From Coriobacteriia bacterium (GTDB taxonomy: Bacteria > Actinomycetota > Coriobacteriia > Anaerosomatales > PHET01): a stretch of 64,000 bases of DNA. The notes under the pieces are model-generated. The model was given only the letters and a program-made list of their open reading frames with translations, was not told the origin of the DNA and did no database searches. The DNA lies in assembly GCA_034370385.1 (NCBI GenBank), contig JAXMKZ010000030.1, forward strand, positions 1 through 64,000, in the 5' to 3' direction. This document shows, piece by piece, positions 3,118-52,583 of the stretch (its first letter is position 1; every line of letters starts with the position of its first letter). The position numbers were made by a program, and so were the translations under genes.

Positions 3118-5220
3118 ATGTCAACGCGGCCCCCGGCACACAGCCGTGCCGACAGACTGGCGGCGTTCGACGAGCCTGCCTCGGCAGCCCGGCACGTGGA
3201 CTCCGCGCGCGCCCAGGCGCTGTCAAGACTCGACATCAACACCGTATTCGATCTGCTCGTTCACGCCCCCTTTCGCTACGTCGATCTGACGAGGGTGACG
3301 CTGGTCCGCGATGCTCGCATCGGAGGGGATTGCACCATTGTCGGCACCGTTCATGAGGTTCGCGTCAAGCGCCCGCGACCTCGTCTGGCCGTCACTGAGG
3401 TCTCCCTCACCGACGCGACCGGGACCGTGGTAGGTGTGTGGTTCAACCAGCCGTGGGTGCAGCAGAGGTTCGTGGTAGGGGAGCGGGTCGCCCTGGCCGG
3501 TCGCGTGGAACTCGACTTCGGGCTACGCACCATGAAGGCTCCTTTCGTCGAGAAGCTGGCGAAGGACTCCTCGGACGCCGACGGTCGGGTCATCCCCGTC
3601 CATCACAGCACCGAGGGTCTCACTGCTCCGTGGCTGAGGCGCCTCATCGCATCAGCCATCGATGACTTTGGCGATGTAGCCGACCCACTGCCGTCCTCCA
3701 TCCGAATGAAGCGGGGACTTCTCGGGCGGGCCGCAGCTCTGCGCGGGCTGCACTTCCCTGACTCCCTCGAGGATGCGGACCGGGCGCGCAGGCGCTTTGC
3801 CTACGACGAGCTCGTGGTCCTTCAGCTCTATATGGCCATGCGTAGGCACGCGATCACTCGTGAGGTCGCGGGAGTCGCACACACCGTGGATGGCTCGGCG
3901 CTTCGCACGCTTCGTGAGGGACTGCCGTTCTTGCTCACCGACGACCAGGATCGTTGTGTGGGCGACATCCTTGCGGACATGGCGGCGCCGCGCCCCATGA
4001 ATCGACTTCTTCTTGGCGACGTCGGCACGGGTAAGACGGTCGTCGCGGCGTGCGCTCTGGCTGCGGCTCATGACTCGGGATTCCAGGCGGCGATGATGGC
4101 GCCGACGGAGGTGCTCGCTCTCCAATATGCCGAGAAGGTCGGTCCTCTGCTCGAGGCAGCAGGTATCCCGTGGGGTGTGCTGACGGGCTCGACGGGCGCA
4201 TCTGCCCGCGCGGCGATTCTTGACCGATGCGCGGGCGGCGAGCTGTCCGTGCTGTTCGGGACGCACGCGTTGCTTGAATCGAAGGTCCAGTTCAACCGCC
4301 TGTCACTTGCGATCGTCGACGAACAGCACCGCTTTGGCGTGGGTCAGCGACTTGGCCTCAGGGGCAAGGGGGCCGCATCCGACCTGCTTGTCATGACCGC
4401 GACTCCGATCCCTCGGTCGCTGGCGCTCACCCTCTACGGCGATCTGGCGACTTCGTACCTGCGATCCCGGCCCAACGCCGCGTCCGGCGTCGTGACGAAG
4501 CGAGTCAAGCCGCATCAGGCGGCCCCCGCGCATGAGGCTGTGAGGCGGGCGGTGTCAGCCGGTCATCAGGCGTACGTCGTATGTGCGCTCGTGGATGAGA
4601 GTGAGACCGCACAAGCCAAGGCAGCAGTACGCGAGGCCGAACGTCTCAGAAGTGAGGTATTTCCCGATCTCAACGTAGGGCTTCTGACCGGTCGGATGCG
4701 GCCTGCCGAGAAGGCTGCGGTGATGAAGTCCTTCCGCAACGGAGAGATCGAGGTGCTCGTCTCAACCACGGTCATCGAGGTGGGGGTCGACGTTGCGAAC
4801 GCCACGGTCATGCTGATCGAGGACGCTGAGCGGTTCGGTCTTGCGCAACTGCATCAGCTTCGGGGCCGGGTTGGTCGGGGAGACCACTCTGGCGAGGTGT
4901 GGCTGATCACCGACCCGCGCTCCAACGAAGCCAAGGAGCGCATAGCGGCCCTCGTCGAGTCTAGCGATGGGTTCGAGCTCGCTGAGCGCGACTTGATGCT
5001 TCGTGGCGCGGGACAGGTTCTGGGTGAACGTCAGCATGGCATTCCTGACCTCAAGGTCGCCGATTTGCTCACCGACCTTGACCTGGTCGAAGCCGCTCGC
5101 TCAGACGCGTTCTCAATGGTGCTCGTCGATCCCCATATGGCCTCACCGATGCACGCGCCACTCCGCGGCGAGGTCCAGCGTACGTTCTCGGGCGCAGGGG
5201 ACTGGGTGAGCAGCGGATGA
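3118..5220 (+). CDS. recG: ATP-dependent DNA helicase RecG
   Basis: The 700-residue superfamily 2 helicase has an N-terminal OB-fold wedge domain (about residues 60-150), Walker A GDVGTGKT near residues 300-307, a DEQH box at about 401-404, the TATPIPRSLALTLYGD motif, and the C-terminal QLRGRVGRG motif. RecG regresses stalled replication forks and processes branched DNA. Length is near the usual 680-700. ATG 3118 follows fakB closely. The stop overlaps the rsmD start in an ATGA, so translation is probably coupled. Confidence 0.95.
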   Translation: MSTRPPAHSRADRLAAFDEPASAARHVDSARAQALSRLDINTVFDLLVHAPFRYVDLTRVTLVRDARIGGDCTIVGTVHEVRVKRPRPRLAVTEVSLTDATGTVVGVWFNQPWVQQRFVVGERVALAGRVELDFGLRTMKAPFVEKLAKDSSDADGRVIPVHHSTEGLTAPWLRRLIASAIDDFGDVADPLPSSIRMKRGLLGRAAALRGLHFPDSLEDADRARRRFAYDELVVLQLYMAMRRHAITREVAGVAHTVDGSALRTLREGLPFLLTDDQDRCVGDILADMAAPRPMNRLLLGDVGTGKTVVAACALAAAHDSGFQAAMMAPTEVLALQYAEKVGPLLEAAGIPWGVLTGSTGASARAAILDRCAGGELSVLFGTHALLESKVQFNRLSLAIVDEQHRFGVGQRLGLRGKGAASDLLVMTATPIPRSLALTLYGDLATSYLRSRPNAASGVVTKRVKPHQAAPAHEAVRRAVSAGHQAYVVCALVDESETAQAKAAVREAERLRSEVFPDLNVGLLTGRMRPAEKAAVMKSFRNGEIEVLVSTTVIEVGVDVANATVMLIEDAERFGLAQLHQLRGRVGRGDHSGEVWLITDPRSNEAKERIAALVESSDGFELAERDLMLRGAGQVLGERQHGIPDLKVADLLTDLDLVEAARSDAFSMVLVDPHMASPMHAPLRGEVQRTFSGAGDWVSSG

Positions 5221-5792
5221 GAGTGATCGCCGGTCGTCTTCGAGGTCGACGCCTGAAGGCCCCCAAGGGGAATCACACACGACCCACCACCGACCGGGTT
5301 CGTGAGTCGCTCTTCTCCGTGCTCGCCTCACTCGCGGGGCCCGAGATCGGAGGGGGCCCGTGCCTTGATGCATTCGCCGGGTCGGGCGCCCTCGGTATCG
5401 AGGCACTCTCGCGTGGAGCCGGTCCGACCACCTTCGTCGAGACCGACCGCGCTGCCTTGTCGGTGCTTGACGATAACCTCGACTCGCTCTCGTTGCGCGG
5501 TGAGTCCAGGGTGCTCAAAGGGAGTGTGTTCTCGCTGGCGAAGTGCGGCATCGGCGGTCCGTTCTCGTTGATTCTGCTGGACCCTCCGTATACACTCGAC
5601 GCTGCTCAGGTTCGGTCACTGCTTTCAGACCTTTTGAGTACTGGAGCAGTGGAACCTGGGGCACTCGTGTCATGGGAGCACGCCAGCTCCACTGAGGTGG
5701 AGTGGCCCGAGGGGTTCGAGTCAGTCGCTCAGAAGCGTTACGGCACCATAGGCATATCGGTAGCGCGGCACATGGAGGGGCGGGGATCATGA
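5217..5792 (+). CDS. rsmD: 16S rRNA (guanine966-N2)-methyltransferase RsmD
   Basis: The 191-residue protein has the RsmD start (RVIAGRLRGRRL), a SAM-binding motif DAFAGSGALGIEAL at about residues 51-64, and the N-methyltransferase motif DPPY at residues 122-125. The family methylates G966 of 16S rRNA during 30S assembly. The start ATG 5217 overlaps the recG stop and its own stop overlaps the coaD start. The recG-rsmD-coaD order is widespread in Gram-positives. Confidence 0.93.
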   Translation: MRVIAGRLRGRRLKAPKGNHTRPTTDRVRESLFSVLASLAGPEIGGGPCLDAFAGSGALGIEALSRGAGPTTFVETDRAALSVLDDNLDSLSLRGESRVLKGSVFSLAKCGIGGPFSLILLDPPYTLDAAQVRSLLSDLLSTGAVEPGALVSWEHASSTEVEWPEGFESVAQKRYGTIGISVARHMEGRGS

Positions 5793-49918: not shown

Positions 49919-50830
49919 GTGCCGCCCCGCGGTGCGAGCGGTTTGTCGGGCATCCTGCTGGTCGACAAGCCGCTTGGTCCCACGAGTCATGACATTGTCG
50001 CAGCGGTCCGCCGCCTGACGGGCGAGCGCCGCGTCGGCCACGCGGGAACTCTCGACCCGCTGGCCACAGGACTGCTTGTGGTGCTCGTAGGACCCTACAC
50101 CCGACTAGAGCCGTATCTGTCCTGTGCTCACAAGTCCTACCGGGCCTCTATCGCTCTGGGCACCCAGACCGACACTGACGATGCTGAGGGTTCAGTCATC
50201 ATGTCCTCCGTGATTCCTGATCGTTTGCGCAGCTCAACGCATGCGGCTGAGATTCTGTCGGAGCTCGAGGGACCCCAGCTGCAGGAGCCGCCGGCGTTCT
50301 CGGCCATAAAGGTGCACGGGCAGACGGCACACAAGGCCGCGCGCGCAGGACAGCCCTTGACGATGGCTCCTCGCCCCGTCGAGATCTTTCGCGCTGAGTT
50401 CGTGGAGCTGCAGCCGGACCCCTTGGTATGGGTCGCGGACTTCGAGGTGTCCAAGGGCACCTACATCCGCGCCCTCGCGCGTGACATCGGTCGACGAAAC
50501 GGTACGGGAGCACACCTGTGCGGCCTCAGGCGCACTGCCTCCGGAGCCTTCGACCTCGCTCAGGCCCACTCCATGGAAGAGATCGAAGAGGCGAGTGGTC
50601 GGGGTTGCATCGCCAGCCTGTTCGCCGACGCATGTGCGGGCCTTGAGCTGCCGCTGGTCGAGGCCACCGTTGAAGAGGTCGCTCACGGTCGACCGCTCGT
50701 AAGACCAGACGGGCAGCCGGGTCGTTTCGCGGTGACTGTCGCGGGACGGCTGGGCGGCGTGTACCATCGCGAAGGCAACCTGCTCAAAGCCGACGTCGTC
50801 TTCCCCGAACCGCTCAGGGGTACCACGTGA
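49919..50830 (+). CDS. truB: tRNA pseudouridine55 synthase TruB
   Basis: The 303-residue enzyme has GILLVDKPLGPTSHD, the catalytic Asp46 in HAGTLDPLATG, EGPQLQEPPAFSAIKVHG and YIRALARDIG. It makes pseudouridine 55 in the tRNA T arm; TrmFO (encoded at 29281) modifies the neighbouring U54. The start is GTG 49919, 3 bases after nrnA. The stop overlaps ribF. Confidence 0.95.
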   Translation: MPPRGASGLSGILLVDKPLGPTSHDIVAAVRRLTGERRVGHAGTLDPLATGLLVVLVGPYTRLEPYLSCAHKSYRASIALGTQTDTDDAEGSVIMSSVIPDRLRSSTHAAEILSELEGPQLQEPPAFSAIKVHGQTAHKAARAGQPLTMAPRPVEIFRAEFVELQPDPLVWVADFEVSKGTYIRALARDIGRRNGTGAHLCGLRRTASGAFDLAQAHSMEEIEEASGRGCIASLFADACAGLELPLVEATVEEVAHGRPLVRPDGQPGRFAVTVAGRLGGVYHREGNLLKADVVFPEPLRGTT

Positions 50831-52128
50831 TGAAACGTGTGATCCACTTTCCCCATGACCGTCATCTTGGTGCAGCAGTCGTGGCACTCGGGGCGTTCGA
50901 CGGCGTGCACGTCGGACACCGCGCTCTTCTCGGCGCTGCGGCCGACCATGCCCACCGTCTCGGCGTGACCTCCATCGCCGTGACTTTCGATCGAGATCCC
51001 GACGAGATACTGCATCCCTATGCCGCTTCACCCCGTCTGCTCACTGCCGCTGAGCGTTTCGACCGCATACTTCAAGCGGGAGTCGATGCGGTGGTCGTGG
51101 TCCCCTTCACCGACGCGACCGCCGCTCTTCAACCGGAGGCATTCCTCGACGACATCATCTGCGGGTGCTGTGACCCCGTCGCCGTTCGTGTTGGAGAGGG
51201 GTTTCGCTTCGGAGCTGGGGGGGCAGGGGACATCGACACCCTGTACGTCTGGGGTGTGGAACACAACATCGACGTCAAGCCGCACCCACTGATCATGGTC
51301 GACGGCGCGACGGTCTCCTCGACGCGGATCCGCGCCCTTGTCGCTCACGGCGATGTGGCCTCGGCGGCGGCATTGCTTGATGCGCCGCACCGCGTTCTGG
51401 GCGAGGTTCATCACGGGCGCGGTCTCGGCGCGGACCTGGGCTTCGCCACCGCAAACGTGAACCCTGACACGGGACTCGCGATTCCGGCTGACGGAGTCTA
51501 TGCCGGACGCGTTCTCCTCCAAGACGGCTCGAGTTGGCCCGCAGCCATCTCCGTAGGAACTCCCCCCAGTTTCCCTGAGGCACGAGACTATCTCGAGGCA
51601 CACCTCATCGGATTTGCCGGAGACCTCTATGAGCAACGCATCGTCATCGAGTTTCTCGATCGCCTACGTGACCAGAAGGCGTTCCCGAGCGAACGAGAGT
51701 TGTCGGCTGCGATCGCTCACGACATAGAGAGCGCGCTGCTGGTGCAGGGAGACGCTGCGCCGGTCACTGATCTCGCGCCATCAGACGAGCTACTGGTGGA
51801 TGATCCCCGGGCCCTTGAGGAGGCAACGGCGGCGGTCTCCCGCATCTCAGGTGAACCCGACTACGGAGACTATGACGACTCGTGGGTGGCGGTGTTCGGT
51901 CCCCACCGAATGTCGACGCTGTTCACCGACGGCGGAGTCGGAGCAGCGCTCGTCACCGGACCTCTGCGCGCAGCGGGAATCCCGTTCGTCTGGGATCCCT
52001 TCCCCCCGGATGCGTCACAGAGCGCTCGCCCGGATTTCAACTGGCTGCGCGAGTTCACCTTGCTGGTGCCCGCCGATTCTGCCGATGAGGCGCGCTCACT
52101 TCTGCTCGGTGGCGCACGTCGCCTCTGA
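50827..52128 (+). CDS. ribF: riboflavin kinase/FAD synthetase with DUF2007-like extension
   Basis: The first ~300 residues are a normal RibF: an FAD synthetase domain with [16 protein letters not shown] and [15 protein letters not shown], and a riboflavin kinase domain with [15 protein letters not shown]. The total is 433 residues, about 120 more than usual. After an acidic linker, residues 353-430 form an extra domain ([39 protein letters not shown]) that resembles DUF2007. It makes FMN and FAD, used by the FabK proteins and TrmFO. GTG 50827 or ATG 50830 starts the gene. Confidence 0.9.
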
Positions 52129-52313: not shown

Positions 52314-52583
52314 ATGCCGCTCGAGAAGGACGTCAAGGCGCAGATAATCGCCGAGTACAAGCGCGGCGAAGCCGATACCGGCTCCGCCGATGTTCAGATC
52401 GCACTGCTCACGCAGCGCATCCGGGATCTCACTGAGCACCTGAAGATGCATCAGAAGGACCACCACACGCGCCGGGGGCTTCTCAAGCTCGTCGGCCAGC
52501 GCCGTCGCCTTCTGGGCTATGTCAAGAAGAATGACATCGGGCGCTACCGCGAACTCATCGCACAACTCGGTATTCGCGGGTAA
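52314..52583 (+). CDS. rpsO: 30S ribosomal protein S15
   Basis: The 89-residue protein has [36 protein letters not shown] and [14 protein letters not shown], the full S15 pattern with the exact family length. It binds the central domain of 16S rRNA. The frame is open to 52134, but ATG 52314 gives the standard N-terminus. A terminator-like hairpin and pnp follow, as in most bacteria. Confidence 0.97.

Follow-up and report, generated by a model that had tools for sequence, protein, structure and literature searches.

A DUF2007-like domain of folate enzymes, fused to RibF in one clade of a Coriobacteriia order

Introduction

What is the long C-terminal tail of a RibF protein from a Coriobacteriia bacterium, and what could it add to an enzyme of flavin synthesis? 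The question arises in a stretch of 64,000 nucleotides (GenBank assembly GCA_034370385.1, contig JAXMKZ010000030.1), here called the window, in which a sequence-only reading had seen a RibF of 433 codons fused to an extra, DUF2007-like domain. RibF and the DUF2007 fold are both already known. DUF2007 is called a domain of unknown function in the accessible part of one paper (PMC3673472). Our literature search, with most subscription journals outside its reach, found no tested function for DUF2007 and no DUF2007 paper on FolK or RibF by title.

Results

A fused gene in an intact reading frame

The start of ribF overlaps the truB stop (Table 1), and the order ribF-rpsO is found likewise in L034, L041 and L050. 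The fusion of RibF to the DUF2007-like domain is real, as had been proposed. The whole protein is read from a single intact frame, the codon-position GC pattern runs on through the linker and tail, and three further assemblies (G003, G026 and G032) carry the same fusion; we therefore reject a frameshift. A sequencing error joining two separate genes could be suspected since one relative (G002) encodes the domain in an ORF of its own, right behind ribF and in frame with it, with its own ribosome-binding-like AAGGAG and GTG. The sequence-only reading had named such a separate gene as a sign of a frameshift; it exists, but with four assemblies fused it reflects natural fusion or fission. Moreover, the in-frame GTG codons of the window's linker have, by eye, no clear ribosome-binding-like sequence, and the RibF of the sister genome G001 ends in a similar linker, suggesting that the in-frame tail is older. 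Such an artefact is accordingly extremely improbable.

Table 1. Features of the ribF locus (positions in the window; residues numbered from the ATG at 50830)
Feature	Residues	Positions	Strand	Basis or remark
truB, upstream		49919..50830	+	ORF; name recognised from sequence alone
ribF + DUF2007-like domain		50827..52128	+	433 codons from GTG 50827, 432 from ATG 50830
FAD synthetase (FMN adenylyltransferase) module	14-166	50869..51327	+	Pfam PF06574, E 3.6e-35
Riboflavin kinase module	184-302	51379..51735	+	Pfam PF01687, E 4.6e-31
Linker	303-325	51736..51804	+	AlphaFold2 full-length model; confidence <50 at 311-323
Helix with LVDDPxALEEA	326-340	51805..51849	+	Sequence comparison, model
DUF2007-like core, strand-helix-strand-strand-helix	352-432	51883..52125	+	Model, profile comparison
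WDPFPP loop	388-393	51991..52008	+	Alignment
rpsO, downstream		52314..52583	+	ORF; name recognised from sequence alone

The RibF part

Both catalytic modules score far above their Pfam cut-offs (FAD_syn 121.5 bits against 27, Flavokinase 108.1 against 19.6). The NCBIfam ribF model TIGR00083 is matched at 186 with a cut-off of 184.35, and other NCBIfam RibF models give strong matches under their own cut-offs, for example NF004160 at 265.7 against 295. In an alignment with 34 relatives (35 RibF proteins) the GxFDGVHxGH, SSTRIR and TAN plus Glu motifs are all kept, and we take their catalytic roles to be those generally assigned to them. The kinase module has ATAN, where PTAN is the usual form, and the invariant Glu256. 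Judged by these profiles and motifs, residues 1-302 are an intact bifunctional riboflavin kinase / FAD synthetase. Both modules and their motifs are shared with type-I bifunctional FAD synthetases such as that of Corynebacterium ammoniagenes, whereas the RibF here has an additional C-terminal domain behind the last kinase-module helix (residues 288-308 in the AlphaFold2 full-length model). Among the 35 RibF proteins, the window's included, 31 end 0-19 residues past the position equal to residue 305; the window's extends 127 residues past it.

The tail

In the full-length model (mean pLDDT 87.0, pTM 0.69) the tail consists of a low-confidence linker, a helix, a second low-confidence stretch at residues 341-344 and a folded domain at 352-431; with this pTM and a linker below 50, the model fixes no firm place of the domain on RibF. 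The domain modelled in isolation has a pLDDT of 77.9. The extra part had been placed at 51883-52128, which starts exactly at W352, but its true start is earlier, at the helix near residue 326 (51805). The LVDDPxALEEA sequence of this helix is common to most ribF-linked copies of the domain and to separate folK-linked copies, and is absent, by eye, from nine FolK proteins inspected. Within the core, W352 and L379 are each conserved in 66 of 70 aligned domains, V413 in 69 of 70 and A421 in 70 of 70, and P390 of the WDPxxP loop is found in all 69 aligned domains having a letter there.

Relationship to DUF2007

Taken as a single sequence, the tail does not reach the Pfam family: residues 351-432 score 12 bits against DUF2007 (PF09413), with a cut-off of 25.7 (E 0.25), and neither the complete tail of 127 residues nor the full-length protein gives a PF09413 match in Pfam. 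At the level of the family the picture is different. Using hhalign against a DUF2007 profile (33 sequences, of which 29 come from elsewhere in the phylum and four, not borne on FolK, from the host order), the profile of 70 domains reaches 97.5% and that of the six ribF-type domains 94.2%, while shuffling the columns of the DUF2007 profile 100 times gives at most 1.3% and 1.5%, respectively, and reversed profiles give 0.2% and 0.1%. PF09413 is also matched by 10 of the 19 members of A1, a profile built from the host order's own domains (7.2e-5 at best; the ten do not include the window's own row), and FolK-borne copies of G014, G055 (36.2 bits), G056 and G039 exceed the Pfam cut-off. These profile comparisons clearly indicate that the tail subfamily is distantly homologous to DUF2007. 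Since the window's own sequence falls short of the cut-off, we call the domain DUF2007-like and not a member of the Pfam family; in this form the proposed DUF2007 likeness stands.

Fold comparison points in the same direction. The top PDB match of the domain model is 2HFV (RPA1041), in Foldseek with an E value of 0.71, which is not significant, and in VIA with Z 6.7 (3.0 A over 70 residues), below the tool's Z 8, under which a match may reflect merely a common arrangement. The DUF2007 profile itself finds 2HFV at 5.1e-6, as the sole structure at E <0.1; profile A2 ranks it first, but at E 0.37, and a PDB sequence search with A1 gave two chance-level matches only. Directly behind 2HFV in the fold list come ring-building domains of secretion systems (Z 5.8 to 6.0), above the ACT domains of aspartokinase and CASTOR (Z about 4.7 to 5.7). 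The modelled fold may thus be regarded as supportive rather than decisive for kinship with DUF2007.

With DUF2007 (PF09413; 2HFV) the domain has in common the strand-helix-strand-strand-helix core, as modelled, and the GI(P) and V..(D)..AR..L motifs. It differs in the WDPxxP loop, absent by eye from the 33 aligned DUF2007 sequences, in the leading DDPxAL helix, and in being attached to FolK, FolP or RibF; the 29 canonical DUF2007 loci of the phylum have no FolK or RibF ORF within about 1.5 kb. The small regulatory-type fold of ACT-domain enzymes such as aspartokinase, and of the CASTOR sensors, may be comparable, with middling scores; however, we found no sequence link between them and the domain, and other fold families score equally well.

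Distribution in the host order

With profile A1 the domain is detected in 58 of the 69 genomes of the host order, and in 49 of the 51 good ones; 47 of the 58 have a single copy. A search of the class with A1 found it in 58 of 246 genomes, all in the host order and none among the 177 outside, for the up to 19 candidates scored per genome. A phylum search (296 genomes, up to 16 candidates each) gave weak matches in seven genomes outside the order (E 9e-5 to 0.007), at eight loci with no FolK or RibF ORF; four of these genomes also have PF09413 matches there and the other three are DUF2007-like by eye. As A1 was drawn from the host order, copies that have diverged in other groups could be mistaken for plain DUF2007. 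A contig scan with one strict peptide pattern gave eight loci, and a Planctomycetaceae match of 23 residues within a 71-residue ORF (L134) was taken as chance. PF09413 itself is matched in just 11 of the 69 genomes, several of these matches being the FolK copies themselves; a general DUF2007 partner protein elsewhere in the genome was rejected on this count.

FolK as the main carrier

The domain was located at 72 places, 61 of which adjoin FolK, eight are on or beside ribF and three are elsewhere (one at a contig end). FolK (HPPK) was located 59 times, in 58 of the 69 genomes. In 49 of these 59 the domain is fused C-terminally, five of them having an N-terminal copy as well, and in six it is encoded just upstream in another gene; three FolK proteins lack it (G003, the second FolK of G053, and G060), and that of G019, whose ORF contains masked N and has the domain in another frame than FolK, is unclear and counted apart. 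The window genome's own FolK (G000:C4; L033:3392-4201, - strand) carries the domain at its C-terminus, residues 167-254. The FolK-to-domain linker spans 4 to 53 residues in 50 FolK proteins. Across the order, the domain is on or just beside FolK in 14 of 16 families; in the remaining two, f10 and f16, neither FolK nor the domain was found. FolP is a further partner. Among the six FolK genes with an upstream copy, that of G010 is directly preceded by FolP (Pterin_bind) fused to the domain (L103:1940-3133, - strand), and G024 has the genes in the order folE-folP-domain-folK (names read from the sequence). The principal carrier of the domain is FolK, and RibF is a minor one. The sequence-only reading, correct in seeing RibF plus a DUF2007-like domain, had missed this partner.

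Some carriers are unusual. FolK proteins with both N- and C-terminal copies are encoded at L100, L101, L102, L105 and L108; in that of L105 the N-terminal copy is separated from FolK by about 85 residues without a Pfam assignment, and a Pfam search of ten unusual carriers gave no name for this stretch in G055. In G030 (L104:1928-2800, - strand) a weak FolK-like protein is followed by the domain and a hydrophobic tail, with panB/panC-like neighbours (by eye), and another domain-bearing FolK lies elsewhere in that genome. A standalone copy of 115 residues in G015 (L095:1970-2317, - strand) adjoins neither FolK nor RibF.

RibF carriers and their history

We searched 41 genomes for RibF and obtained 35 proteins with an assessable end; G004, G005, G012 and G040 were left out because of contig ends, and G022 and G027 gave no RibF match. 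Four of the 35 are fused to the domain (G000, the window's genome, and G003, G026 and G032), one has it as the next gene (G002), and 30 are without it. Besides their fused copies, G026 and G032 have, between truB and ribF, an extra copy that bears a hydrophobic tail, and the RibF of G032 bears two tandem domains (L039:3315-3959 for the upstream copy and 3650-5755).

In the RibF tree, eight proteins from families f1, f15 and f5 make up one clade (98/94, with bootstrap not settled), which holds the hosts of ribF-linked copies; G001, G007 and G017 also lie inside it and have no domain at ribF. In the domain tree, which is rough, having few columns, and left out copies with fewer than 65 aligned residues, six ribF-linked copies form one clade (99/97), while the domain fused to RibF in G026 and the second of the tandem pair in G032 group with N-terminal FolK copies (95/81). 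A joint alignment of full RibF and single domains (A5) was dropped, as 23 of its 25 domain rows were misplaced. The RibF of G001 (L003:1498-2481, - strand) ends in AAPMPPDLPPALIDIVDD (AAP...IVDD), resembling the window's linker, as if a domain may have been lost; the 420 bases behind its ribF stop hold no domain remnant detectable by tblastn (best E 0.11, on the other strand). In the simplest history, a separate domain gene would have been duplicated into the ribF operon within the RibF clade and then fused, with later losses, for instance in G001.

Discussion

The domain described here is a DUF2007-like module that belongs to folate enzymes, is restricted to one order, and was probably copied beside RibF, and fused to it, in one clade. 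We hold its identity and its association with these enzymes to be highly probable. What it does there is a question on which our readings are much more cautious.

We tentatively favour, at somewhat less than even probability, a role as an accessory regulatory module that would sense a small ligand on RibF and change the activity or assembly of the enzyme. According to this speculation, RibF gained the domain by duplication and gene fusion from a FolK-centred, ACT-like alpha+beta subfamily, and a flexible linker would tether it to the kinase module, past the last helix. The conserved WDPxxP loop would bind a small ligand, most simply a pteridine-type ring, and binding would alter activity or assembly. 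The substrates of FolK, FolP and RibF share pteridine-type rings (dihydropterin or isoalloxazine), and FolP uses no ATP; a ring ligand would thus be the simplest common denominator. The last helix of the kinase module, behind which the tail domain follows here, is presumably the one termed alpha1c. In the C. ammoniagenes FAD synthetase, as described in the accessible part of the report, mutations in helix alpha1c of the kinase module modulate the enzyme's quaternary structure as well as its ligand binding and its kinetics (PMC5428420).

Several observations count against ligand sensing. Foldseek gave no significant match and ring-building domains rank above ACT domains; the RibF of G001 and the FolK of G003 and G060 do without the domain, which is therefore dispensable; and since the FolK-to-domain linkers vary so widely, a tether fits as well as an allosteric module. 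'Signal transducing' is a Pfam label of DUF2007 only. Of the order's 69 genomes, 62 have an FMN riboswitch, among them the window's own, so flavin sensing at the RNA level exists anyway, and loss of this riboswitch as the reason for a protein sensor was rejected. An Rfam search of the window itself gave no matches. No THF riboswitch was found in the 69 genomes, and the control genomes were silent too. A broader version, in which one module acts as a common pteridine-ring sensor on FolK, FolP and RibF and would tune the two GTP-derived vitamin pathways, those of folate and flavin, or gather them at the membrane, is rather unlikely.

Alternatively, the domain could be an oligomerisation or docking module, pairing with itself or with tail-anchored neighbours and so gathering FolK and RibF in assemblies or at the membrane, with no ligand needed. 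This is possible, if doubtful. A hydrophobic tail stands behind the domain in eight of the 67 rows of our domain set, which includes at least one truncated duplicate (L054): in six enzyme-free proteins, the RibF of G003 and the weak FolK-like protein of G030, and some DUF2007 relatives outside the order (L208, L215) also have such tails by eye. The tailed copies beside the fused ones in G026 and G032, the varying fusion point (after FolK, after FolP, before FolK or after RibF) with its variable linkers, and the ring-building domains next behind 2HFV would likewise suit docking. However, the tail anchors are inferred from hydropathy alone, the conserved WDPxxP loop exceeds the needs of a plain pairing sheet, and with a single copy in 47 of 58 genomes only self-pairing could be general.

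The domain could also be a neutral or stabilising appendage, a chance fusion that is harmless or aids folding and has no regulatory role. Its sporadic occurrence on RibF (four of 35) and the domain-free RibF of G001 and FolK of G003 and G060 are what one would expect of it, but the domain is kept with FolK in most families of the order, the residues W352, L379, P390, V413 and A421 are near-invariant, and there are several modes of attachment to enzymes with related substrates. We consider such an appendage quite improbable.

The RibF-domain architecture, the association with FolK and the restriction to one order appear undescribed within the literature searched. Through fusion and gene order they link a DUF2007 subfamily with FolK, FolP and RibF as defined partner enzymes with standard assays, which makes the role of such domains directly testable. 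They also suggest that one Coriobacteriia order controls or places two vitamin pathways by one module.

Accessory domains occur on other flavin enzymes. RibR of Bacillus subtilis is a flavokinase with an accessory C-terminal domain, likened here to the window's RibF by description and not by sequence; nothing in our data suggests RNA or riboswitch binding by the domain. Our literature search for extra domains on FolK or RibF turned up nothing related except work on plant FAD synthetases. One such enzyme, according to the accessible part of the report, is fused to an inactivated FAD pyrophosphatase (PMC9678776) and is likewise a flavin-nucleotide enzyme with an extra domain, but the enzyme and the domain are different ones, from plants, and the likeness is again one of description.
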